Source of the DNA: Eubacterium sp.
GTDB lineage: Bacteria; Bacillota; Clostridia; Oscillospirales; Acutalibacteraceae
Reading direction: 5' to 3'
Length of the DNA: 18,291 nt
NCBI GenBank assembly: GCA_024696725.1
Contig: JAILGO010000003.1
Coordinates: 1 to 18,291, forward strand
This document shows positions 2,970-13,425 of the stretch, in pieces. Positions within the stretch are counted from its first letter, which is position 1. Each line of letters begins with the position of its first letter. Made by a program: the position numbers and the translations under genes. The notes under the pieces were generated by a model. It had not been told where the DNA came from, did not search any database, and saw only the letters and a list, made by a program, of their open reading frames with translations.

Positions 2970-3446
2970 TTACGCGAACATAATACAAACGTAGGTAACG
3001 CCGACCTCGTTGAAATTCTTATACTCGTCGCCGTGTACTCTTACCGCAGACTGCTGAACGCTCAGCGTGTTTCCGCTCAGCGAGGCGCCCGTCATCGAGC
3101 CCGATTTTGTAACTATTGCAAAATAGTTATAGTCCGAGGCGTTGTCAAAATCCGTTACCGACGCAACGAGATTCATCGCGAAAACTATTCCCCAAGTCGG
3201 CTCGAAGCCGCTTTCTACGGTAATATCGCGGTTACCCGAGCCGTTTCCGTAATACATAAACATATAATAGCCGTTATTCCATTTATTCCTTTCCTCGTCC
3301 GTAATATGAATAAGACTATTCGCAATATGAGTTCCGACGGCGTTATCAATAATAACGTTATCGTCGTTGAAATCGCTCATCTGCGGAACGTCGCTTCCTA
3401 TCCATCGGTTAAGTCTAAGGTGATAGGTTTTATTTGTACTGCTCAT
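2970..3446 (-). CDS. Short tail fibre / receptor-binding-like protein
   Basis: A 158-residue protein encoded by the last gene of the phage operon. The N-terminal 30 residues (LRLNRW...SDFNDDNVIIDNAVGTHIAN) resemble the attachment region found at the start of many Firmicute phage tail fibres. They are followed by HITDEERNKWN, a short stretch that recurs in such fibres. The remainder is rich in Gly, Ser, Asn and aromatic residues, with SGNTLSVQQ and a hydrophobic YVCIMFA end, suggesting a single beta-sandwich tip. Fibres of related phages are usually several hundred residues, so this looks like an attachment domain joined directly to one tip domain. A ribosome binding site, AGGCGG, precedes the ATG. 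The position downstream of the gp48/XkdU-like gene supports the call, but receptor specificity cannot be inferred. Confidence 0.6.
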   Translation of the reverse strand: MSSTNKTYHLRLNRWIGSDVPQMSDFNDDNVIIDNAVGTHIANSLIHITDEERNKWNNGYYMFMYYGNGSGNRDITVESGFEPTWGIVFAMNLVASVTDFDNASDYNYFAIVTKSGSMTGASLSGNTLSVQQSAVRVHGDEYKNFNEVGVTYVCIMFA

Positions 3447-3464
3447 TTTTTCCGCCTTTCATAA

Positions 3465-4025
3465 TTATTCAAAATACTCCGTTGAGAGCGTGTCTATTAA
3501 ACTGAAGGTCAGTCTCAGCCTGTCGTACTGACGGAAGCTTTTTGAAAGAGCGTTCCAGTCCGAAAACCTCATACCGTCCGAGTCAAACTCCGCCGCAGTG
3601 CCGACAGGAACCGCGCCGAGAGAAAAGGCGCCGACGTTTTCGAGCACGGGAGGGCAGCAATTACGGATTATAAGCTTACCGTTGCCGTATTCGTACTGCG
3701 CTCCGCCGAGAACGGCGCATTCGCCGTCAAACGCGCTTTTCAGCGAGCAGGCGCCGAAGCCGTAGGAATACCTGTTTTTTACCGCTTCGGTAACCTGCTC
3801 CGCGGTAAGAAAGTCGGTATTAATTCCCATAACCGACGCGTAATAATCAGCCTCTCCGCCGTAAAGAGAAAAGAAAAGCTTTTCTTTTAAAGCTTCGAGT
3901 TTTTCGTTTATAACGTTTATTCCTGCCGTGTACGCCGCTGCTTCCGCTTCTGCATAGCTTCCCGCCTGAACGTCGAGGCCGAGCACTGAGAAAAGCTCCG
4001 TCAATCTTTCGTAAACGCTACTCAT
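3465..4025 (-). CDS. Baseplate protein, gp48/XkdU (YmfQ, DUF2313)-like
   Basis: A 186-residue protein in the position of Mu gp48 and PBSX XkdU, directly after the gpJ-like gene. In known phages this protein joins the wedge to the tail fibre. The N-terminal half is helical and acidic, with a repeated Glu/Ala stretch. The middle has YGGEADYYASVMGI and a KNRYSYGFG motif typical of the transition to the C-terminal beta region. The call rests on moderate sequence resemblance plus gene order. Its start codon overlaps the end of the upstream gene by eight bases, indicating translational coupling. A 19-base gap precedes the fibre gene. Confidence 0.6.
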   Translation of the reverse strand: MSSVYERLTELFSVLGLDVQAGSYAEAEAAAYTAGINVINEKLEALKEKLFFSLYGGEADYYASVMGINTDFLTAEQVTEAVKNRYSYGFGACSLKSAFDGECAVLGGAQYEYGNGKLIIRNCCPPVLENVGAFSLGAVPVGTAAEFDSDGMRFSDWNALSKSFRQYDRLRLTFSLIDTLSTEYFE

Positions 4026-5079
4026 AGCTGCTCACCCTCAGTCCGTTAATAACGAGATGAGCCTTATCGGGACAGAAAACTATACCCTGAACGGCTTCGG
4101 GAGATGACGCCTCGCAATAGCTTACGCCCTCGGCAAGAGAGGCAAGATAGACGATTTTTGAAATATATATGTTTTCTCCGATAGCCGCGTTGGCTGCGTA
4201 CTGCTCTATTCTCTCTCTTGCCTCGTCTACCGCGCTTTCGCTGACCGCCGCGTTCACCTTCAGCTCAACGTTAAGCGAGAACGTTCTTTCGGGCGATTCC
4301 GAAACGGTAACGGTTTTATCGGTAAGAACCGCGACCTCAAACGCCTCGCTTACGGTATCACTGATTTCCGCGACTGTAACTCCGGGCTTCAGTCTCAAAG
4401 CAACGTCAATACCATTATCGGTATAATATCCCCTGCAGTCGCGTATTCTCCCGTCCTTAAGAAGTCCCTGACGGACGGTTTCAAGCGAAAAGCCCGTCTG
4501 CGGAATACTGTATGAGTCGAGAATACGAAGTCTGAGCGCCTCGTCGCTTTCAGCCGATGAGCCCGACGCGAACGCCTCGTTATTAATTACTCCGTCTATA
4601 CCGACGGGCGGGTTAACCATAACGGTAACGCTTTCAGGAGGCACGTTATATTCCCATCCGCATTCAACCGCGCTTGCCGAAACGGTAACCGAAAGCTCTC
4701 CCGCGGGAATTACCGCCGAGGCGTCCGTAACGAACTGAATATACGGCTCGCCGCTTACCGAACAGATTACGCCCGACGGAATTTCCGTATCGGCGGCGCT
4801 CGGCTCGTCTATATAAAAGGTCAGAACGCCGACCGCCCTTTGCGCTTCCTTGCGGTGAATATCTCTCAGCTCCGCATGAAAGTCGAGATAATCGCCCGTC
4901 GCCGTCTGCGGAAGCGCCTGACGGAGTATATAGTTTTCTTTACAGGCGAGCGTAAAAAGCTCGCTTGCAACAGCCTCAAGCCTTGCCGCCGTGTCCGAGA
5001 AATCCTTTACCGTTTCACCGCAGCTATTGAAGTATGCGTTTTTCATTTCGTTGAGTAATTCGTTATACGTTATTTTCAA
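4018..5079 (-). CDS. Baseplate J-like protein (gpJ/gp47/XkdT)
   Basis: This 353-residue baseplate wedge protein belongs to the Baseplate_J family, the scaffold that forms the ring around the hub in contractile tails. Typical features are the N-terminal helical LA...LHAELRDI...R region, followed by GVLTFYIDEPSAADTEIPSGVICS, and the conserved central NNEAFASGSSAESDEALRLRIL segment in which Ser/Glu-Asp-Glu and Arg are family hallmarks. Its length is normal for XkdT (about 350). The start is TTG at 5079, because AGGTGA lies nine bases upstream and the first in-frame ATG (5046) has no ribosome binding site. It overlaps the upstream gene by 17 bases. The neighbours on both sides are baseplate genes in PBSX/Mu order. 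Confidence 0.85.
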   Translation of the reverse strand: MKITYNELLNEMKNAYFNSCGETVKDFSDTAARLEAVASELFTLACKENYILRQALPQTATGDYLDFHAELRDIHRKEAQRAVGVLTFYIDEPSAADTEIPSGVICSVSGEPYIQFVTDASAVIPAGELSVTVSASAVECGWEYNVPPESVTVMVNPPVGIDGVINNEAFASGSSAESDEALRLRILDSYSIPQTGFSLETVRQGLLKDGRIRDCRGYYTDNGIDVALRLKPGVTVAEISDTVSEAFEVAVLTDKTVTVSESPERTFSLNVELKVNAAVSESAVDEARERIEQYAANAAIGENIYISKIVYLASLAEGVSYCEASSPEAVQGIVFCPDKAHLVINGLRVSSYE

Positions 5080-5401
5080 GCCGTATACTCACCTGTCCTT
5101 CCGTATCGTTTATAAGAAGAGAAATAACCGCCCGTCCGTTTTCAAGCTCTGCGCTTTTTACCGTAACGCCGTCAAGTCCGTCGAGCGCCTCTGCGGCATA
5201 GATAAAGGCGTATTTATCGGCAGGCTCACGGTTCAGCTCTTTTATACGCGAGCCGAAGCTTTTATTCGGATAAAACCGTCCGCGCCTTGTGTTGAGCGCG
5301 GTAAACGCATTCTGAAGAAGCTCCTCTATATACTGTACTGTTAAAGCCTTCCCCGTTTGCGCGTCTCTTTTATAGTCGCCGTCAATCACCCTGAGCGCCA
5401 T
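5063..5401 (-). CDS. Baseplate wedge protein, gp46/gp25/XkdS-like
   Basis: A 112-residue protein with the gp25/gpW-type lysozyme-like-fold layout of small wedge subunits. It has an N-terminal region with GDYKRDAQTGKAL, a helix with EELLQNAFTALNTRRGRFYPNKSFGS that resembles the conserved 'L.T.RGE...P..G.G' core of Mu gp46/XkdS, and a beta-rich C-terminus that ends in a ligand-free tail. It probably joins gpJ-like wedges around the hub. I take ATG 5401 as the start because GGGGAGG lies seven bases upstream. A TTG two codons earlier would abut the ribosome binding site. It overlaps its upstream neighbour by 20 bases and is overlapped by the gpJ-like gene. Confidence 0.75.
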   Translation of the reverse strand: MALRVIDGDYKRDAQTGKALTVQYIEELLQNAFTALNTRRGRFYPNKSFGSRIKELNREPADKYAFIYAAEALDGLDGVTVKSAELENGRAVISLLINDTEGQVSIRLENNV

Positions 5402-5753
5402 TTTCAATCCTCCCCTGTCTATCTATTTTAAGCGTTTTATTAATAATAACGCTTCCGTCGTTTTTCAGCTCGATACAGGCTCCGCCCGACGAGCTGATTT
5501 TTATTTCGCCCGCGTTGAGCGTACCTACGGGCGCTTTTACTCCGAGAGCTACCGAACCGTCGGACGCTTCCAGAATAAGAACCTCCTCGCCGACGGGCGC
5601 TATTGAAGTAAAGCCGTAGGGAAGATAACAGCTTATGTTACGAACGTTTTTTGAAGCGTCAGCCTCCCAGTTGTTCCGCGACGCAAGAGTAACCTCTCCC
5701 TTTTCAGCGAACGGTTGCGTTGCGCTTTTATTCATTTTTCTGCTCAGCCACAT
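5382..5753 (-). CDS. Baseplate spike protein, gpV/Mu gp45-like
   Basis: A 123-residue protein with the layout of a contractile-phage central spike. The OB-fold core (LPYGFTSIAPVGEEVLILEASDGS) ends in GVKAPVGTLNAGEIKISSSGGACIEL, followed by a short repeating beta strand set (KNDGSVIINKTLKIDRQGRI) like the start of a gp45/gpV triple-stranded helix. The spike is short and shows no iron-binding His-x-His tip that I can see. GGGGAGG at 5760-5766 lies six bases before the ATG at 5753, so I prefer this start to one at 5774 or 5735. It overlaps the end of the upstream hub gene, as is usual for coupled baseplate genes. The function is to puncture the target envelope, or just to cap the hub if no tube exists. 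Confidence 0.75.
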   Translation of the reverse strand: MWLSRKMNKSATQPFAEKGEVTLASRNNWEADASKNVRNISCYLPYGFTSIAPVGEEVLILEASDGSVALGVKAPVGTLNAGEIKISSSGGACIELKNDGSVIINKTLKIDRQGRIENGAQGD

Positions 5754-6663
5754 ATTCAACCTCCCCGAGCTCAAGCTCCTTTGAAAGACCTATTACTGTT
5801 TTTACGCCGTTTTTGTTACCGAGAGTTACAAGCGAGCTTATGCGGTAGCCCTCAAGTCCGTCATAAATAACGGGTGAACAAAGCTCTGCCGTAACGACTC
5901 CCGAAACAGTAAGCTCGGCGGAATAGTATTCCCTTGCGGAGTCCTCTATAACCGAGCTTAAGAGAGTTGAGCGTTGCCACTCAGGTACGGCTGAAAGACT
6001 TAGCTTGCGCGAGCGCCTTATCCCGTTCTTATCAAGCAGAGTGCTTTTCAGATGGCGGTTATATTCGCCGTCGGTTTTACAGTCGATTCTGCTTACAGCT
6101 TCGCCCCGTTTAATTATTTTCTTTAAGCCGAGAACGGCGTTTTTATCGACGGTATAGCTCTTTTTTCCGTCGGGTACGTATAGAACGCCGTCGGGACTCA
6201 CGGCGATATTGTTTTTACAAAACGCCCTGACAAAGCTGTTTATCGCACCGTAACAGCTTGTCCCCCGTCCTATGGGATAATCGGCGCGCACCCAGTAGTT
6301 TTTCAGCCCGTTTTTAAAACCGAAGTCCTCTGCGTTTACTAAAAACAGCGTATTAACGCACGGCGCGTTATAGGTAAGCTGAGGCGCCTCGTTATCAACG
6401 AGCAGACAGGCTGACGAGCGCGCGTAGATAAAGGCTCTTCCGTCGCTGAAGCTCTGGCAGTCCGCGTAACCTCTGAATACGCATTTACCGTCGGCGTACG
6501 CCTCAAGGGCTACCGCCTCGACGGGCTCGCTTTCCGAAAGAAAAACGAGTCTCAGCCCGTCGCACGCCGCCCGCGTATCGCGCGACCATTCATAAGAGAC
6601 GACCTCTGCGGCTTTTGATTTTTCTCCGTTCAGGAAGGTAATAATAAATTCTATTTCAGCCAA
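5728..6663 (-). CDS. Tail hub protein, gpD/XkdQ-like
   Basis: A 311-residue late-control-D type hub protein (T4 gp27 / P2 gpD / XkdQ family). The N-terminal domain (FLNGEK...SYEWSRDTRAACDGLRLVF) and the early KCVFRGYADC motif are typical of the tube-like first domain. The later region, with DCKTDGEYNRHLKSTLLDKNG and a C-terminal GYRISSLVTLGNKNGVKTVIGLSKELELGE, fits the second barrel. In contractile phages a trimer links the tube to the spike. The start is TTG at 6663, reading over the last codons of the LysM gene. AGGAGG lies ten bases upstream, a rather long spacing, but no ATG is available nearby. With no tube gene in the element, this protein would have to dock to something else. Confidence 0.8.
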   Translation of the reverse strand: MAEIEFIITFLNGEKSKAAEVVSYEWSRDTRAACDGLRLVFLSESEPVEAVALEAYADGKCVFRGYADCQSFSDGRAFIYARSSACLLVDNEAPQLTYNAPCVNTLFLVNAEDFGFKNGLKNYWVRADYPIGRGTSCYGAINSFVRAFCKNNIAVSPDGVLYVPDGKKSYTVDKNAVLGLKKIIKRGEAVSRIDCKTDGEYNRHLKSTLLDKNGIRRSRKLSLSAVPEWQRSTLLSSVIEDSAREYYSAELTVSGVVTAELCSPVIYDGLEGYRISSLVTLGNKNGVKTVIGLSKELELGEVEYVAEQKNE

Positions 6664-7166
6664 ACCTTATCACCCTCCTTAACGGAAAACGGCTCCTCAA
6701 AATCATTGAGCGCGATTACGGTCTCTATCGCCGTATTGGTTCTGTACGCGATATCAAAGAGGTTTTCTCCGTCCTGAGCCAGCGTGTAGCCAAAGTCATA
6801 TTCTCCGCTTTTACTGCTGATATCCTGAACAAACTCGAAGCTGTAACCGATACAGTTTCGCTCGGAACAGACGTTCAGCTCAAGCGAGGTAAAAAGCGCT
6901 TTAAACGGACTTACCACAGGTAAGAAGAGGTAGGCGGAGCCTTTCTTTTTAAATGCAGCAAGAAGCTGCTGAGCTCTCGCCGAAGCGTTTTCGCCCGCGA
7001 GTATTCCTTTTCCGCTGACCTTAACGGGAAGCTCGCATACCTCCTTGCACCCCGCATTTGAGCCCGGCGCCTCGGTCACAGCCGTGCGTTTTGAGTATTC
7101 CGTTTTAAGCGTCGAGGGATTCACTTCAAAACAGACTCCCCTGTAGCTCATTTTTATACTTTTCAA
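6651..7166 (-). CDS. LysM-domain baseplate/hub protein (XkdP-like)
   Basis: This 171-residue protein has a C-terminal LysM-type module: YTLAQDGENLFDIAYRTNTAIETVIALND, then VKEGDKVWL at the very end, about residues 124-171. In PBSX-type phages a LysM protein (XkdP, also T4 gp53-like) follows the tape measure and precedes the hub; LysM probably holds the assembly or binds peptidoglycan. The N-terminal part (SYRGVCFEVNPSTLKTEY) is beta-rich and resembles the membrane-facing domain of that family. The start is TTG at 7166: AGGTGA sits seven bases upstream and the codon overlaps the stop of the 35-residue ORF (TTGA). An ATG at 7151 has no convincing ribosome binding site. At 171 residues it is shorter than XkdP (about 230). 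Confidence 0.7.
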   Translation of the reverse strand: MKSIKMSYRGVCFEVNPSTLKTEYSKRTAVTEAPGSNAGCKEVCELPVKVSGKGILAGENASARAQQLLAAFKKKGSAYLFLPVVSPFKALFTSLELNVCSERNCIGYSFEFVQDISSKSGEYDFGYTLAQDGENLFDIAYRTNTAIETVIALNDFEEPFSVKEGDKVWLK

Positions 7167-7270
7167 TCTGAGTCACCTATTTTCGTGTCATATCTTTTAG
7201 AGTCGAGAAAAAGGTATTCGCTAATTTCATTTAATTCGGAATATATTTCCGTTTCTCTTTCTTTTTCCAA
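7163..7270 (-). CDS. Hypothetical 35-residue protein at the tail-gene junction
   Basis: I do not recognise this protein. It is highly charged (start MEKERETEIYSELNEISEYL, end DSKRYDTKIGDSD) and predicted to be helical in its first half. Support for translation: GGAG, which overlaps the stop codon of the upstream tail terminator gene, sits seven bases before a TTG start, and the ORF's stop overlaps the TTG start of the LysM gene. Its codons are A+T-richer than those of the neighbours by eye. It occupies the exact place where a contractile phage would encode sheath, tube, chaperone and tape measure, so it is either a remnant of a deleted gene or a small functional adaptor. No start other than TTG is possible close by. 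Confidence 0.45.
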   Translation of the reverse strand: MEKERETEIYSELNEISEYLFLDSKRYDTKIGDSD

Positions 7271-7274
7271 GTTA

Positions 7275-7676
7275 TCACTCCGTTTCCGTATCGGTAAGAC
7301 AGCCGAAGGTAAATACGCAGCGGCAGTAAAGACAGCCGAGGCTTTCGCTCTTTTCCGCGGGAGTAACCGCTATAGCGTCGGGATACAGCTTCGATACAGC
7401 GCGCACCGTATTTTCAGCCGCGGAGTTTAAAGCCTGTCCGCCGAGAGCGAGAGGTGAAAAAAGCTCAGCCCGTACCCTGACGCTCCCGTACTGAGCCGAC
7501 TCGCCGATTCCCGCGGGAATATAATCAGATTCGCCGGACGAAAGGGCGATTACCGTTTTTTCAAGCCTTGTCGGCTTTAAAAAATCGGGATAAGCTCTGA
7601 TTACCGCCGCGTTTTCAAGCGCCGCTTCGGACTTAAGCGCGCCGTAAACCGCATCTAACGCGTTATAGATTCTCAT
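7275..7676 (-). CDS. Tail terminator/completion-like protein
   Basis: A 133-residue protein starting MRIYNALDAVYGALK. The alternation of hydrophobic beta strands, and a C-terminal YCRCVFTFGC strand that is common at the end of tail terminator proteins, suggest the tail terminator fold. Position supports this: it is the third small protein after the capsid and would be the last connector before the tail. The start is the ATG at 7676, because GGAGG lies eight bases upstream. A longer reading frame begins at 7781 but has no ribosome binding site and would overlap the previous gene extensively. It overlaps the previous gene by 14 bases. In normal phages this ring caps the tube, so its retention without a tube gene is odd. 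Confidence 0.6.
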   Translation of the reverse strand: MRIYNALDAVYGALKSEAALENAAVIRAYPDFLKPTRLEKTVIALSSGESDYIPAGIGESAQYGSVRVRAELFSPLALGGQALNSAAENTVRAVSKLYPDAIAVTPAEKSESLGCLYCRCVFTFGCLTDTETE

Positions 7677-8031
7677 AGCCTTCGCCTCCCTGCTCCTTTT
7701 TAAGCACTCCCCTGAAATACTGAACGGTGTTTCCCGCCTTGACGCAATCCGCCTGAACGAAATAATACTTTTCACCGTCAATTACCGCGTATCCGTCGTC
7801 TCCGAGTTCTCTTATATCGTAAGAGGCGGGACCGTAATAGATATAAAAGCGGTTAAAGTATCTTCCTATCGGCGAAATCTTTTCTTCAAAATGGGATTTG
7901 TTTCTTTTCCAGGTCTGCTCTATTACCGCAAACACCTCGGTCGTTTTTCCGTCCTTAATGATAAAAACGCTTTGTCCGAGACGCTTTAAGTATTTTTCTA
8001 TTGTTTCCGATTTATCAAGAATATTAATCAT
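7663..8031 (-). CDS. Head-tail joining protein (head closure/stopper-like)
   Basis: A 122-residue protein in the head-closure position, second small gene after the capsid. It contains KSHFEEKISPIGRYFNRFYIYYGPASYDIREL and a DGEKYYFVQADCVKAGNTVQYFRGVLKK segment. The latter resembles the conserved beta-strand core of SPP1 gp16/XkdH-type stoppers, which end with a similar 'y..g.lkk' tail. Assignment is by position and fold character and is not certain. The ATG at 8031 has AGGGG immediately adjacent, unusually close, and a stem-loop lies just upstream. The in-frame codon two upstream is a stop, so no earlier start exists. The gene ends inside the start of the tail terminator gene. Confidence 0.5.
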   Translation of the reverse strand: MINILDKSETIEKYLKRLGQSVFIIKDGKTTEVFAVIEQTWKRNKSHFEEKISPIGRYFNRFYIYYGPASYDIRELGDDGYAVIDGEKYYFVQADCVKAGNTVQYFRGVLKKEQGGEGYENL

Positions 8032-8040
8032 CCCCTAATC

Positions 8041-8061
8041 GGCGGAGGCAGAGCCTCCGCC
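8041..8061 (-). other. Intercistronic hairpin upstream of the stopper-like gene
   Basis: A perfect 9-bp inverted repeat (arms 8041-8049 and 8053-8061, three-base loop) lies in the only sizeable gap inside the head operon. It ends nine bases before the start codon of the next gene. On the - strand it is not followed by a T run, so it is not a classical terminator. One arm contains GGAGG. It may act as an RNA processing or translation-control element, or stabilise the downstream mRNA. Confidence 0.6.
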
Positions 8062-8064
8062 CGT

Positions 8065-8415
8065 TTAAACTGTCCTGAAGTCGAAGGCTTCGCCGTCGGC
8101 AAGCGCGGGACAGCCGCGGCTTACCTCCTCAAGAAGCGCCCTTGCGCTTTCAAGCGTTTCGTTTCCTTCGGTAATGCTTACGTCGCCTGCCCTGAAGCTT
8201 TTAACGCCGCCCGTTTCCCGTTTAATCAGCGCGAGACGGTAATTAACCCTTGCCGCTGCGAGCATAACCGCGTCAGCAGTGCTTTTACCGTTTTTAAGTC
8301 GTGCGTTTATTCTTTCCCTTTCGGCGTCAATAATTACCGAATAGCCGAGAAGCTCCTCGGCGCCGTAAGGGCTTATCGCCTCAAGACATTCAATGATTTC
8401 GCTGTTGCTAATCAT
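8065..8415 (-). CDS. Head-tail connector (adaptor, gp6/XkdG-H type)
   Basis: This 116-residue, mainly helical protein follows the capsid gene, where adaptor proteins of the HK97 gp6/SPP1 gp15 class normally sit. The central part (RLKNGKSTADAVMLAAARVNYRLALIKRE) looks like the helical core of such adaptors. It is followed by SFRAGDVSITE, the conserved 'sf..GdvSit' motif of the family, and the C-terminal helix region. The motif plus position make this fairly reliable. It starts at an ATG four bases after the capsid stop, with only a weak ribosome binding site, so translational coupling to the capsid gene is likely. A 33-base gap with a hairpin follows. Confidence 0.65.
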   Translation of the reverse strand: MISNSEIIECLEAISPYGAEELLGYSVIIDAERERINARLKNGKSTADAVMLAAARVNYRLALIKRETGGVKSFRAGDVSITEGNETLESARALLEEVSRGCPALADGEAFDFRTV

Positions 8416-8419
8416 ATTA

Positions 8420-9400
8420 TCAGCTCATAAGCTTTACGGCGTCGGTAAAGATAGGCGAGAAGCCCGTAATCGTCGTAATTGCCGCTCTTTCAAGCTGACG
8501 GTCTATGAGCTTATCGAACTCGGTGAGAACCTCGCCGGCCTGTACCTTTTCAAGCGCATAGCTTTTATCGAGACCGATAATACCCGGACAGATTGAAGCG
8601 TCCACCTTGTTGAGCTCCGCGCCGAGCGGGGTAATCATATTACCCGTGCCGTGGAAGTTAAGACCTGCCGCGCTGTCCTTGAACTCGGTCATATTGAGAA
8701 GGTCGGGAAGAAGCGCAGACGAGCAGAGCATAGTAGTCATATTATACGGCGAGAAGCTGTTCCAGAGGTTAACGATATCCGTATAAGCGATATCGTTACC
8801 TGCGATTGAAACGGTCTGTGCGCCGCTGTTAAGAAGCACGTTCACAGCGTCGGCAAGCTGCTGTCTTGCGATATTGCTTCCGATTTTTTTAAGCATAATG
8901 GTAAACATATCAAGACGCTGGAACTTGATAGCCTCGTAGGAGGCTACAAGCATTCTTCCGCGCTTTTTAAGCTGAGTGAGGCTGTCCTTGGTTTTAATTA
9001 CGGTTTCGGGGATAAACGCTCCCTCGCCGACGTCCATAAGCGCCTTGTCCCCGTCACCCGCGTCGCATTGAATCGCTCTGTAATCAAGCGCGTCGATTTT
9101 AGTTGTAGCGGCGATAATCTTTTCGAGGGTGTTATCCTCCTCAATACCCTGATATACCGCGCGGGACACGTATTCGGGGAAAAGCACCGCGGAGGACGTA
9201 GTTTCAAAAAACTTTGAAACGGTATCGCTGTCGGTTCCCGTTACCTTGATATCGAAGCGCTTGAGCTGACGCTGAAACGCGTCGAGTCCCTCGTACTCGG
9301 TACCCCTGTAGTTTTCAGAGGGGTCAAGCTCCTCAAGAGCGCGGGTGAAGCCCTTTGAAGCGGTGTAAAGTCCTTTTTCAAGCTGTATATTATCAAACAT
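8420..9400 (-). CDS. Major capsid protein (HK97 fold)
   Basis: A 326-residue protein between the decoration protein and the adaptor, which is where the major capsid protein is expected. Recognisable features are an N-terminal arm with DAFQRQLKRFDIKVTGTDSDTVSKFF, the 'sAvlFPEyvsraV' segment near residue 75, and the P-domain/spine-like region with KKRGRMLVASYEAIKFQRLDMFTIMLKKIG. A central A-domain follows, ending in ALEKVQAGEVLTEFDKLIDRQLERAAITTITGFSPIF. Length is normal for this family. There is no long delta domain visible, consistent with scaffolding supplied by the protease tail. GGGAGGT lies nine bases before the ATG. It is likely the most highly expressed gene of the operon. Confidence 0.85.
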   Translation of the reverse strand: MFDNIQLEKGLYTASKGFTRALEELDPSENYRGTEYEGLDAFQRQLKRFDIKVTGTDSDTVSKFFETTSSAVLFPEYVSRAVYQGIEEDNTLEKIIAATTKIDALDYRAIQCDAGDGDKALMDVGEGAFIPETVIKTKDSLTQLKKRGRMLVASYEAIKFQRLDMFTIMLKKIGSNIARQQLADAVNVLLNSGAQTVSIAGNDIAYTDIVNLWNSFSPYNMTTMLCSSALLPDLLNMTEFKDSAAGLNFHGTGNMITPLGAELNKVDASICPGIIGLDKSYALEKVQAGEVLTEFDKLIDRQLERAAITTITGFSPIFTDAVKLMS

Positions 9401-9421
9401 TGTATTTATACCTCCCGTTAA

Positions 9422-9772
9422 TTATAAAATGAAGCCGACGGTGCTGTTTTCGGTATCTACCTCAATAACTCTGTAAAGCGGTACTCCGTCGTCTTCGGAT
9501 ACTGCTACGCCGCCGTTTCCGTCGGAGCAGAGCTTACTCCATCCGCACGCGGGCGCGTCCCCGCTGAAGGGAGCTTCAACAAAGCCCTCCATCTGTGCGG
9601 TAATGAGCTTACCTCTGACCGAAACGCAAACGCCCACGAAGGCGCTTCCCTCGCCGGCAATACAGCAATCGCCGTTCTCGTCGAAGCCTACCGTATCTCC
9701 CTTTTTGAACTGAGCGTCGCTTTCAAAGGTAAGCGCGCTTGCGTTAAAGCCTCTGTATGAAATGTTCTTCAT
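9422..9772 (-). CDS. Capsid decoration/cement-like protein
   Basis: This 116-residue protein appears all beta: alternating Gly/Ala/Val with FKKGDTVGFDENGDCCIAGEGSAFVGVCVSVRG and a second barrel half ending in VGFIL. That resembles the DUF2190/gpD-like decoration proteins that stabilise expanded HK97 capsids. Position agrees: it lies between protease and major capsid protein, as lambda gpD does. It has a few cysteines that might be redox sensitive, but no pattern stands out. AGGAGG sits seven bases before the ATG, one of the best ribosome binding sites in the operon, in keeping with a high-copy structural protein. An alternative is an unrelated minor capsid protein. Confidence 0.55.
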   Translation of the reverse strand: MKNISYRGFNASALTFESDAQFKKGDTVGFDENGDCCIAGEGSAFVGVCVSVRGKLITAQMEGFVEAPFSGDAPACGWSKLCSDGNGGVAVSEDDGVPLYRVIEVDTENSTVGFIL

Positions 9773-9783
9773 ATCTTTTCCTC

Positions 9784-10710
9784 CTAAATTCTGAATTGTG
9801 AATAATCCTTAGCGGTTTTGCCCTCGGCTGAAATAAGCTGAGGCTCGGGGACTTCCCCTGATTTTACAAGACTCTCTTTAACGGCAATCAGCTCGCTCAC
9901 CGTCATAGCCGATACAATTTCGGAAAAAACTTCGCGTTCTATTTCGGGTACTTTTTCGGTGAAGAGCTTTAATACGTCCCTGCAAAGCTCGGACTTAAAT
10001 CTCACTCCGAGCGTTGCGTTCTCCTCAAGAGAGTTAATATAGCAGTTAAGCTGCTTTAACTGCGCCGCGTTAAGCTCAAGCTTTTCACAGTCCGAGCGTA
10101 CCGCCTTAATAATGTCGTCCAAAGCGTTAACCTCCTTAGAATAATACGACTTAGTAACGCCTGCCCTTCGCTGAGCGGGTACGGCGACGAAGCTGAATTC
10201 ATAAGCGTCTGAGGCGTCCGACAGAGTAGTGTAGCACAGCTTGCCGCCGTAGCTTTTTCCGCCGATATGGCCGCAGCGCTCGCTTCGTCTGTCCTTGCCG
10301 CAGACCGAGCAGACAGCCTTTTCCATAGAGCAGGAAACCGAAACCTCTTTTTTAATACCGCCCTCGATTTCGTCAATCAGCGTTTTATTTTCGTCGTTTC
10401 TGAGCATATACGCTCTCGCTTTAAGACGGTATAGCCCGTCGCCGTAAGCGGTCAGCTCGTCGTCGGATTTCTCGATATAGGTATCGAAAATTCTCGCCTT
10501 CTGGTCGGCGCTTTTCATCGAGTGGTCGAATATGCCCGTTTTCCCGATAAAGAGCTCTTTAAGCTGCTTAAGCGCGTCGAGCGAAAAGCATTCGTAGTCC
10601 CTGTCGATATCGTTATCGCAGAGGGTGAGGGTAAAGATATATACCTCCTCCTCTGTGAGCTCCCGCTTGGAAAAGGCGTTTATTCTGTCTATATCCTTAA
10701 GCTCGCTCAA
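9784..10710 (-). CDS. Prohead protease with C-terminal helical (scaffold-like) region
   Basis: A 308-residue XkdF-type phage prohead protease. The protease domain spans about residues 20-190. His63 (in GIFDHS) and a serine in VSVSCS (Ser124 or Ser126) are the likely catalytic pair, and YEFSFVAVPA near 170-179 is the conserved closing strand. A Cys/His group, CSVC near 134-137 and CGH near 146-148 plus a later Cys, is characteristic of this phage protease subfamily and could bind zinc. Residues after about 195 are charged and helical, like a fused scaffold. The start is a TTG at 10710 with GGAGG nine bases upstream; the TTG at 10719 would touch the ribosome binding site. It overlaps the portal gene's last codons. 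Confidence 0.75.
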   Translation of the reverse strand: MSELKDIDRINAFSKRELTEEEVYIFTLTLCDNDIDRDYECFSLDALKQLKELFIGKTGIFDHSMKSADQKARIFDTYIEKSDDELTAYGDGLYRLKARAYMLRNDENKTLIDEIEGGIKKEVSVSCSMEKAVCSVCGKDRRSERCGHIGGKSYGGKLCYTTLSDASDAYEFSFVAVPAQRRAGVTKSYYSKEVNALDDIIKAVRSDCEKLELNAAQLKQLNCYINSLEENATLGVRFKSELCRDVLKLFTEKVPEIEREVFSEIVSAMTVSELIAVKESLVKSGEVPEPQLISAEGKTAKDYSQFRI

Positions 10711-11854
10711 GGGTTTCAACCTCCTTTAAAATTTTGTCCGCCTCGGCGTTGAGCTTTCTCGCCTCGGCAAGCTGGGTTTCATCCTGAAGCGTAATATCGT
10801 CCCAGACAACGTCAGCCGTTTCGCCTATGCCGTTTAAGATAAGGTATGCGTTTCCTATGCGTTTAAGAACGGGGGTAATAATCCTTCTGTACGCCTCAAG
10901 CTCGGTTGTAAGAATATCCGTCTGCTGCTGAGCCATCCGCTCGCTGACGGACCAGTTAAGTCCGAACATATAGGGCATAAGTCCCGTCTTGGCAATAATC
11001 TGCTCAAGCATCTGGCGCACGGGAATCTCGCTGTCGAGAATCTGATTATCCGCGCCGATAACGCTTACCTTAACGTCGCCGACGGCTACGAAATCCTTAA
11101 CGCTGTCCTTAGAGCTCATAGCCTCGCGCCACGCGTCAGCCATCTGTTCGGCGCGCTCCTTTGCGAAGGCTCTGTCGCCTCCCTCTCCCTGCGGTCTGTA
11201 GGTAACCGCATAACGAAGATTTCCGACTCTTTCCCAGTTTGTGCCTATGGTTTTATAAATTTTTAAAAGGATATCGCTTACAAACGGCAGTCCGCGCAGA
11301 AGGCTCGTTCCGAGAATTCTTCCCGGCTCGGGATTTAAAACGGTAAAAAGTATCCTCTCGGGATGAGAAAGAAGGACGGGCGCACCCGACGAGCAATTAT
11401 AGAATTCAAGCTCAAGGCTTCCCTTTTTTCTTCTTACGTCTATAACGTCAAGCTCGCCGTTATAAAGCGCTGCTATACCGTTACCGTCGGTTACTATTTC
11501 GCCGACAGCCGTCCCGTAGGTTAAAAGCTGCTCGACGTAGCTGTCGACGAACGCCTGAATTCCCGTCTGATTTCCGCCGACGTTTACAAGCGAAAAGAAT
11601 TCCTTCATTTCGGCGTCGAGCGCCTCGTTACCCGTTAAGAATTCAAAGCCGCCCATAAGCCGCACGATTTTATTTATCGCGCTGTCAATTATCGGTACGG
11701 CGTCTCTTAAGGCACGGTATACCCTCGCGTTGCAGCCTGCTGCGGTACTGCCCGAGAGCGCACTGAATGGGTGAACGCTTCTGTCTCCCGTCTGAACGGC
11801 GACGGAATATCCCTCGCTTTTAGACTCGCTTTTCCTTTTAGTGAATATTCCCAC
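10697..11854 (-). CDS. Phage portal protein
   Basis: A 385-residue portal, the dodecameric vertex through which DNA enters the capsid. Typical elements are YRALRDAVPIIDSAINKIVRLMGG near the start, the wing/stem region with GRILGTSLLRGLPFVSDILLKIYKTIGTNWERVGN, and a clip/crown region with IIAKTGLMPYMFGLNWSVSERMAQQQTDILTTELEAYRRIITPVLKRI. The last is the classic portal C-terminal helix motif. The start is GTG at 11854, with AGGAAG seven bases upstream; no ATG in frame fits. It lies four bases after the large terminase, the usual order. Length is slightly short for PBSX-like portals (about 450), so the crown may be reduced. Confidence 0.85.
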   Translation of the reverse strand: MGIFTKRKSESKSEGYSVAVQTGDRSVHPFSALSGSTAAGCNARVYRALRDAVPIIDSAINKIVRLMGGFEFLTGNEALDAEMKEFFSLVNVGGNQTGIQAFVDSYVEQLLTYGTAVGEIVTDGNGIAALYNGELDVIDVRRKKGSLELEFYNCSSGAPVLLSHPERILFTVLNPEPGRILGTSLLRGLPFVSDILLKIYKTIGTNWERVGNLRYAVTYRPQGEGGDRAFAKERAEQMADAWREAMSSKDSVKDFVAVGDVKVSVIGADNQILDSEIPVRQMLEQIIAKTGLMPYMFGLNWSVSERMAQQQTDILTTELEAYRRIITPVLKRIGNAYLILNGIGETADVVWDDITLQDETQLAEARKLNAEADKILKEVETLERA

Positions 11855-11858
11855 GGCA

Positions 11859-13109
11859 TCACTTCCTTTCTACTGCAACGGAGAACGAATAATCCTCTCT
11901 TCCGCCCAGTACGTGCTGAACAAAGTATCTTACGTCGTCCATTGCGTGGTCGTTTTCCTTTTTCGGTGAATCGCGTTTTATGTCGTTATCCCAGCGGTAT
12001 ACCGAAAACTCGCGGATAGCGTCGCTGCACTCGGGGAAAAAGAATATTTCGCAGTCTCTGAGCGCCTGACACACCCGGTTAATACCCGTTAAAACATCGT
12101 TATCCGCACGAATAACCCTGTACTCGCCGTGGCGCTTTACAACCTCAATAAACGAGGCGGCGGACGGGTCTATAATGAGAGCGGTTATATTCCTGCTTCC
12201 CGCAAGCGTTTTAAGCTCCGCGTAGTATTCCTCGTCGGTTAGCTGAATACCCCGGTCGCGCGAGGAGTGATAATACTCCTTCACCCTGTACCACTTACCG
12301 CCGCTTCTTCCCCACAGTCCGAGAGAAAACGGGTTAACCGTACCGTAGTCGCACGAAAGATACCACATATCGAAGCTCTCTGCTTTTTTAACGTGCTTTT
12401 CGGGCGAAAACATCGGATATACGAGCCCGTCGGCAGCCACCCATTTTCCCTCTATAAAACGCTCATAAAACGCGCCCGAATAAAGGCTTTTATAACGGCA
12501 TTTGATTTCATCCGAAAGGGAGGGATTATCGTCCATAGTGAAATGAAGGTAAAGCATATTCTTCTCATCGGCTTTCTTTATCCACTCATTATAAAACCAA
12601 TGATAAGGATGCTCGGGGTTGCAGTTAAACCAGAACACAGAGCCTTCAACCGAGCATCTCGCCAGGGCCTGCTCAACGAAGGAGCGCGGCATAAGCGCAA
12701 CCTCGTCAAAAAGGACGCCGCCCAGGGTCATACCCTGGATTAAGGCAGCCGAGCTCTCGTCTCTTCCGCCGAAAAGATAGAACCGGTTTTCCGCGTTGCC
12801 CTTTCTGATTGTAAGATAATTCTTGCTTACCCTCTCGCTGACCTCAAAGCCGAGCGCGGTTAAAACGGGTATAAGCGGCGTAACGACGTTACGTCTTAAA
12901 GAGGATATGGTCTTTCCGCAAAGGGCAAACGACGTATCGCTGAAGCCGTAGAATGCCCATCCTATAAACGAAAGCGACATACAAAGCGTCTTGCCGCTTC
13001 TTACCGCGCCGTCACAGATTATACCGTTTTTACTCCTGTCGGGACTTTTTCTGCACCACCAGGTCAGAACGCGAAGCTGCTTTTTTGAAAAGGGCGTGAA
13101 CTTAATCAT
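11859..13109 (-). CDS. terL: Terminase large subunit (PBSX/XtmB type)
   Basis: A 416-residue DNA packaging ATPase and nuclease. Walker A is GAVRSGKT (34-41) and Walker B is LFDE with Asp135 and Glu136. The FNCNPEHPYHWFYNEW coupling motif follows. The RNase H-like nuclease domain carries its acidic residues in LSCDYGTVNPF (Asp254), LIIDPSAA (Asp314) and NDHAMDDVRYF (Asp391/Asp392). All catalytic residues are present, so the enzyme looks active; nuclease-only or packaging-dead forms are not indicated. The family usually packages by the headful (pac) mechanism. I start at ATG 13109, which overlaps the last codons of the small terminase, rather than 13139. Confidence 0.95.
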   Translation of the reverse strand: MIKFTPFSKKQLRVLTWWCRKSPDRSKNGIICDGAVRSGKTLCMSLSFIGWAFYGFSDTSFALCGKTISSLRRNVVTPLIPVLTALGFEVSERVSKNYLTIRKGNAENRFYLFGGRDESSAALIQGMTLGGVLFDEVALMPRSFVEQALARCSVEGSVFWFNCNPEHPYHWFYNEWIKKADEKNMLYLHFTMDDNPSLSDEIKCRYKSLYSGAFYERFIEGKWVAADGLVYPMFSPEKHVKKAESFDMWYLSCDYGTVNPFSLGLWGRSGGKWYRVKEYYHSSRDRGIQLTDEEYYAELKTLAGSRNITALIIDPSAASFIEVVKRHGEYRVIRADNDVLTGINRVCQALRDCEIFFFPECSDAIREFSVYRWDNDIKRDSPKKENDHAMDDVRYFVQHVLGGREDYSFSVAVERK

Positions 13110-13425
13110 CGTTGAATACACTTCCCGCGTTTTCAGCACTTTTCTCCAAAGCCTGATAAAAGCTTAAGCCCTCGTCGCTCCCCGCGCCGCTGTACTCCCT
13201 TAGCTTTTCGCATGCCTTTATTCTGTCGAAGAATTTAATCTCCATCCCTCCGCCTTTCGGCTTCTTAATCTCGCTGACGTTATAAAGGTTAAGCTTTTTA
13301 AGCCTTGAAAGCGCCTCCTCGTCGCTGAGAAATAAAAGCGAAACCGCGTCGCTGATATTTCCGAAGGCGAGCTTTTCAAGTCCGCGTTCGACCTTCTCCG
13401 AGGTCGTCTTTTTTCTTTTCGGCAT
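13102..13425 (-). CDS. terS: Terminase small subunit (XtmA-like)
   Basis: A 107-residue protein, first gene of the operon, directly upstream of terL. The basic N-terminus (KRKKTTSEKVERG) suggests DNA binding. The later KPKGGGMEIKFFDRIKACEKLREYSG is the 'kgG.EikfyDrlKALe.L' motif typical of PBSX-type small terminases, so identification is good although the helix-turn-helix portion is short. Small terminases of this type are usually 150-260 residues, so this one lacks much of the N-terminal DNA-binding region. GGGAGGG about eight bases before the ATG gives a strong start. The stop codon overlaps the terL start by eight bases, typical for coupled translation. The reduced size could relax packaging site specificity; this is inference. 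Confidence 0.7.
   Translation of the reverse strand: MPKRKKTTSEKVERGLEKLAFGNISDAVSLLFLSDEEALSRLKKLNLYNVSEIKKPKGGGMEIKFFDRIKACEKLREYSGAGSDEGLSFYQALEKSAENAGSVFNDD

Follow-up and report, generated by a model that had tools for sequence, protein, structure and literature searches.

The stretch analysed here (the window) comprises 18,291 nucleotides of a metagenome-assembled genome of Eubacterium sp. that consists of 195 contigs and is 93% complete. Positions 2970-13425 carry, on the minus strand, a cluster of phage-type genes in the order terminase, portal, capsid, neck proteins, tail terminator, 35-codon open reading frame (ORF), hub, spike, wedges and fibre (Table 1). The host genes aroF and DUF1015 lie on either side, and family-library scans identified no integrase or replication gene among the genes of the cluster; structural and packaging genes without these are expected of gene transfer agents (GTAs). 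The presence of a gp44/gp27-type hub together with wedge proteins is characteristic of contractile phages such as PBSX and Mu. The sheath, tube and tape measure that define such phages were not found in the window, nor was a chaperone. A preliminary description of this DNA had reported that these tail genes are absent between terminator and hub, and we confirm that the terminator gene is followed by the 35-codon ORF and then by the LysM gene.

Profile searches of the source genome found no sheath, tube or PF10145 tape measure elsewhere. The tube profile was empty in all 60 genomes of the genus; as a control, it was run on six genomes, where it detected all four that bear a tube and was silent in the source genome and G329. 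PF10145 matched in 9/60 genus genomes, the source genome not among them. A separately encoded tail was rejected as a candidate, the sheath family PF04984 exceeding its cut-off in only one of 37 genus genomes searched (G010); that match lies on contig C1, the capsid gene on C5 and the hub gene on C142, and a further match, on C14, falls short of the cut-off.

Table 1. Genes of the phage-type cluster and their assignments (positions in the window).
Product	Positions	Strand	Basis
TerS (small terminase subunit)	13102..13425	-	107 aa, without N-terminal (DNA-binding) half; PF03592 match at 58-129 of 141 only, 25.0 bits vs cut-off 26.1
TerL (large terminase subunit)	11859..13139	-	PF03237 1.6e-12; phrog_2 5.7e-50
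Portal protein	10697..11854	-	phrog_30703 2.8e-124
Conserved head-module protein (scaffold/protease position)	9784..10719	-	phrog_16951 1.8e-88 (function unknown); role by position only
Small head protein	9422..9772	-	phrog_4588 1.5e-19, virion structural protein
Major capsid protein	8420..9400	-	PF25209 3.4e-14; phrog_3922 3.6e-83
Head-tail adaptor-like neck protein	8065..8415	-	Position; phrog_442 at E 0.023 only
Stopper-like neck protein	7663..8031	-	Position; no family match, no useful PDB match
Tail terminator	7275..7676	-	
35-aa peptide, probable residual C-terminus of tape-measure-position protein	7163..7270	-	Genus profile; motif shared with longer pre-hub ORFs
DNA_circ_N + LysM baseplate protein	6651..7166	-	PF07157 1.8e-5; LysM 0.005, under its cut-off
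Baseplate hub, Mu gp44/T4 gp27 fold	5728..6663	-	
Spike, Mu gp45-like	5382..5774	-	9ki1_V at E 0.0011; phrog_25991 (function unknown)
gp25-like wedge protein	5063..5407	-	phrog_120 7.5e-8; PF10934 under cut-off
gpJ-like baseplate wedge	4018..5079	-	PF04865 3e-27
gpI-position baseplate protein	3465..4025	-	Place conserved in many relatives; no family match
Fibre/receptor-binding-type protein	2970..3446	-	N-terminus phrog_33092 6.4e-5 (function unknown); weak tail-protein matches; last gene in relatives

When the TerL translation was read by eye, its Walker A (GAVRSGKT) and Walker B (LFDE) motifs and nuclease-type aspartates appeared intact. Profiles of the adaptor, stopper and terminator yielded no useful match among PDB sequences. 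A fold search with a model of the terminator returned 2gjv (function unknown) as best match; 6tba_4A of the Rhodobacter GTA also matched, and one row was a Listeria antigen.

Conservation of the tubeless cluster in the genus

Of the 60 genus genomes, 52 have the capsid gene and 50 the LysM hub gene. The tubeless order (type A) recurs in 34 of the 37 genus loci fetched, the other three being cut short; capsid and hub lie 1177-1291 bases apart in those 37 genus loci, the window among them, that hold both genes. Finite ratios of nonsynonymous to synonymous substitution (dN/dS) ranged from 0.03 to 0.52 (16 genes, 11 close pairs), and the substitution pattern indicates that the cluster genes are under purifying selection. 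One option of the preliminary description was a clean deletion. The spread of the capsid gene through the genus, the shared tubeless order and the low dN/dS values refute a recent deletion in this strain alone.

The site is shared as well as the genes. DUF1015 lies within the fetched stretch in 26/37 genus loci (window included, L105 excluded), and in some loci the ORFs between it and the cluster resemble host genes when their translations are read by eye (coaX-like, transporter-like). Distances for six cluster genes correlate with those of DUF1015 (Mantel r 0.66-0.82; 0/2000 permutations each). Vertical inheritance under purifying selection is a feature of GTAs, and the cluster shows it in its single match per order genome, its dN/dS, its host-like tree and the Mantel comparison (with a neighbouring gene only). 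The decay and lack of conservation typical of a defective prophage were not seen, though single relatives have broken frames. Conservation is strongest in the packaging genes, mean genus identity being 0.75 for TerL against 0.37 for the hub.

Four genus genomes that are 95-97% complete (G001, G006, G038 and G051) gave no capsid match, and the element can therefore be lost. In one relative (L111/L291) the other cluster genes were found and TerL lies in three pieces, either by decay or by assembly error.

Graded tail types across the order

A capsid profile matched 101 of 395 genomes in a sample of the order, in 52 of 172 genera, and 98 of these 101 genomes have exactly one match. In the window's family 51 genomes matched and nine did not, among those listed (another 274 misses in the sample go unlisted). 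Of the 101 positive genomes, 72 contributed fetched loci (73 stretches). The counts leave out loci that were too short to class, and also L105, where a contig end truncates the capsid gene; the capsid-hub distance counts given below are partly redundant, some named loci duplicating genus loci (e.g. L106, L070).

The relatives form a graded series, from sheath plus tube, through tube only and no tube (the window's type), to no hub. In 123 loci with both genes the capsid-hub distance falls into three bands, with 59 loci at 0.80-1.29 kb, 42 at 1.55-1.94 kb and 22 at 3.18-6.79 kb. These correspond imperfectly to profile classes: the short band holds 50 of class A, four of class C and five others, the middle band 35 of class C, three of class C? 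and four others, and the long band is class S throughout (22/22). Class S is defined by a match to a sheath profile whose seeds were ORFs of 320-420 aa in that slot; two ORFs of the seed type were scanned and are sheaths (L211, phrog_279 1.5e-40 and PF04984 6.4e-12; L213, phrog_279 1.6e-19). Type C loci carry a tube gene in exactly the slot that has none in the window, and the tube profile matches 8q01_A, a chain of a phage tail tube (E 0.0011). The family phrog_27038 connects the sheathed and unsheathed sets, with matches in L160 (7.1e-13) and L167 (1.3e-6) and none in L150.

By class, the 73 order-sample loci comprise 24 S, 12 E, 11 C, 10 D, six C?, five A, three B and two unclassed. Class E keeps the hub and has no gpJ within the fetched locus, and class D ends at the terminator or shortly beyond. 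In class B a single ORF, of 274-308 aa in L114, L118, L121 and L169, joins a terminator-like to a fibre-like region; in these four the terminator profile matches N-terminally (5.5e-13 to 2.3e-15) and the fibre profile C-terminally (1.7e-21 to 9.4e-26), and no hub profile match lies downstream of the joined ORF. A hub in a second operon was sought for the hub-less types and was not found in any of the 24 genomes (16 with class B loci, seven with class D, one with a locus too short to class); the same search was positive in the other five genomes, three of them controls and two whose fetched locus was short.

A FastTree phylogeny of TerL, portal and capsid (90 rows; L283, L287, L288, L291 and loci without TerL, portal or capsid left out) groups most loci by host family, with a weak base. 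Sheath types occur in f26 and f14, plus one in f1 (L309), and the sheath label changes at least five times on the starred branches. The direction of change is read as loss rather than gain mainly because sheath types occur in all three families; the weak base of the tree bears on this reading.

Several relatives depart from these arrangements. Single ORFs match two adjoining neck or tube profiles in L301 and L305 (terminator plus tube) and in L307 and L312 (stopper plus tube), which suggests gene fusions. L284, L285, L286, L327 and L255 have a head-gene order unlike that of the window, with the portal or the conserved head protein after the capsid gene. Between the tube and the pre-hub ORF of L211, at 9673-10313, two small overlapping ORFs may be a frameshifted tail-assembly chaperone pair.

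The 80 relatives kept carry names including Clostridia, Oscillospiraceae, Ruminococcaceae, Ruminococcus and Eubacterium, and Clostridium sporosphaeroides DSM 1294 is among them; the capsid relative P0304 is named Ruminococcus. In viral contigs (IMG/VR) a single capsid sequence as query found no relative, and with an alignment as query 398 of 441 stretches encode one. Capsid relatives also occur in seven phage-collection records. MT835508.1 is an unannotated 46.7 kb phage-collection record from human faeces with a capsid 56.5% identical.

The 35-codon ORF and the truncated TerS

In other contractile phages the position before the hub is the place of the tape measure. In 39/45 sheath-type loci the hub comes right after the end of an ORF of 100-292 aa (ORFs of 90-320 aa being eligible); the six loci without such an ORF were excluded, and in L252 and L231 the ORF is shorter and lacks the motif described here. 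This motif, [DE]-x-[RK]-[RK]-[YF], lies within the last 25 residues of 31 of the 39 ORFs. When a profile of the pre-hub C-terminus was run against 27606 ORFs of tail-reduced loci, it gave 24 matches at E<=0.01, 22 of them at the pre-hub position (types A, C, C? and E); in the remaining two, L145 and L316, the match overlaps the start called for the hub. A profile matched the 35-codon ORF in 30/37 genus loci, with a pooled dN/dS of 0.18 over 10 pairs. Because the motif that usually ends the pre-hub ORF of sheathed relatives is kept in it, the 35-codon ORF is probably a remnant of the protein at the tape-measure position. Tape measures set tail length at about 0.15 nm per residue of helix; 35 residues would span some 5 nm, roughly one tube ring.

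The TerS of the window has no specific DNA-binding domain, as expected for a GTA. Comparison of N-terminal extent by profile alignment and PF03592 scans showed that TerS of six type C, D and E relatives matches PF03592 from position 1-13, and that of the sheath-type L322 only from 64. In the Rhodobacter GTA, TerS (gp1) starts at the coiled coil, and in the portion of the paper available its authors propose that this loss explains random packaging (PMC6854486). The DNA packed by the present particle would most likely be random host DNA.

A proposed GTA-like particle and its alternatives

The best explanation, which we consider probable, is that the cluster encodes a chromosome-fixed, vertically inherited GTA-like particle in which a contractile-phage tail has been dismantled stepwise, leaving the hub on the terminator. 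TerL, with a TerS devoid of its DNA-binding half, would pack DNA into a small head, and adaptor, stopper and terminator would close the neck. Hubs of the gp44/gp27 type are trimers in which the tube-like domains together make up a pseudo-hexamer; without a tube such a hub would dock directly on the terminator hexamer, where the 35-aa peptide would be the last tape-measure remnant at the joint. Spike, wedges and fibre may attach to the wall of the recipient and cause the neck to open, and delivery would follow. A hub docked straight on the neck to give a short-tailed particle, the other option of the preliminary description, fits this evidence.

Several observations weigh against this explanation. 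Gene transfer is the likely function of the cluster; it is unproven, because the particle is known from genes alone, no lysis gene was found in the cluster, the capsid gene is missing from 8/60 genus genomes (four of them at least 95% complete) and some frames are broken. The breaks comprise the TerL in three pieces (L111/L291), a split capsid and hub in G041 and one stop each in the hub frames of G047, G039 and G055. The one holin family sought, PF05105, was found in 9/60 genus genomes and is absent from the source genome. TerS truncation is not special to tail loss, since 17/43 sheath-type TerS also align at the short end (offset -48 or lower). Eight of the 39 sheath-type pre-hub ORFs lack the motif, and the window's own 35-aa copy has no direct score against the sheath-type profile (E 17), its link running via genus orthologues. 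As DUF1015 is a neighbour, the Mantel test is less a test of the whole genome than evidence that the cluster and its site travel together.

It is unlikely, though the best placed of the alternatives, that the particle is a domesticated head and baseplate with another job, killing or marking competitors or serving in defence, with no DNA delivery. The faster evolution of baseplate and fibre genes relative to TerL would suit such a role; against it, conservation is highest in the packaging genes, and with no sheath found there would be no contractile puncture. Somewhat less probable is that a tube is made after all, by an unrecognised protein encoded elsewhere or by the terminator stacked in several rings to give a short tube. 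Terminator, hub and tube share a fold, and the terminator-plus-tube ORFs of L301 and L305 point the same way; the tube gene of type C relatives, however, sits in this very slot, and the tube profile that succeeded in the controls is silent throughout the genus. A decaying prophage remnant, suggested by the missing tail block and the broken frames, is very improbable given the gene order shared across the genus, the low dN/dS and the host-like phylogeny. A small autonomous phage or satellite moving between hosts would account for the capsid relatives in IMG/VR and phage-collection records and is just as improbable, given the host-gene flanks, the host-like phylogeny, the single match in nearly all positive order genomes and the lack of identified integrase or replication genes.

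Among known systems, tailocins (R-type pyocin, diffocin) are likewise domesticated phage structural genes in a chromosome. They keep the tail and drop the head; this cluster does the opposite, retaining head and packaging genes. With PBSX and Mu-type phages it shares the gp44/gp27 hub, gp45-like spike, gp25-like and gpJ-like proteins and the DNA_circ_N/LysM protein, and differs in the lack of a detectable sheath, tube, chaperone and long tape measure. The Rhodobacter capsulatus GTA is vertically inherited and has a siphovirus-type tail, unlike the tubeless contractile-phage baseplate of the window. The two share the terminator fold match and, as far as the available portion of the paper describes it, a truncated TerS (PMC6854486). 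GTA-like packaging has been reported for Ruminococcaceae and Oscillospiraceae in a 2026 paper, which describes the particles of the Faecalibacterium GTA (FpGTA) as about 40 nm in size and lacking any tail that could be identified (PMC12946183). Compared by that description only, both are compact operons of gut Bacillota with TerL, portal, capsid and a TerS without an obvious DNA-binding domain. FpGTA is described there as having its baseplate, fibre and lysis genes in a second operon, whereas the window has hub, spike, wedges and fibre beside the head genes and no lysis gene was found. No Faecalibacterium name occurs among the 80 loci kept or the 120 proteins listed per relative search (three listings). 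Our literature search, which covered few subscription papers and no preprints, found no description of this family, PMC12946183 alone coming close in its accessible part.

A fixed, inherited phage gene set, coding for a head that packs DNA and a baseplate that grips a host, is carried by many gut Clostridia, and its tubeless form in this genus suggests a short, squat particle that delivers DNA and is controlled by the bacterium and not by a virus. The chances are about even that these clusters are an order-wide GTA family of gut Clostridia, descended from contractile phages, in which intermediate stages of tail loss still live on (a sheathed short tail, a tube only, a hub on the neck with a 35-residue tape measure, and a terminator fused to a receptor-binding domain), the window's particle being the first with a contractile-type baseplate on the head neck without a tube. 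Isolates exist for bench work, such as Clostridium sporosphaeroides DSM 1294 of the tube-only type (L160). If the reading is true, the tape-measure rule could be tested at its lower limit, the relatives would form a natural series testing how much phage tail is needed for DNA transfer into a cell, and bacteria-owned DNA-delivery particles would have a widespread Gram-positive home.
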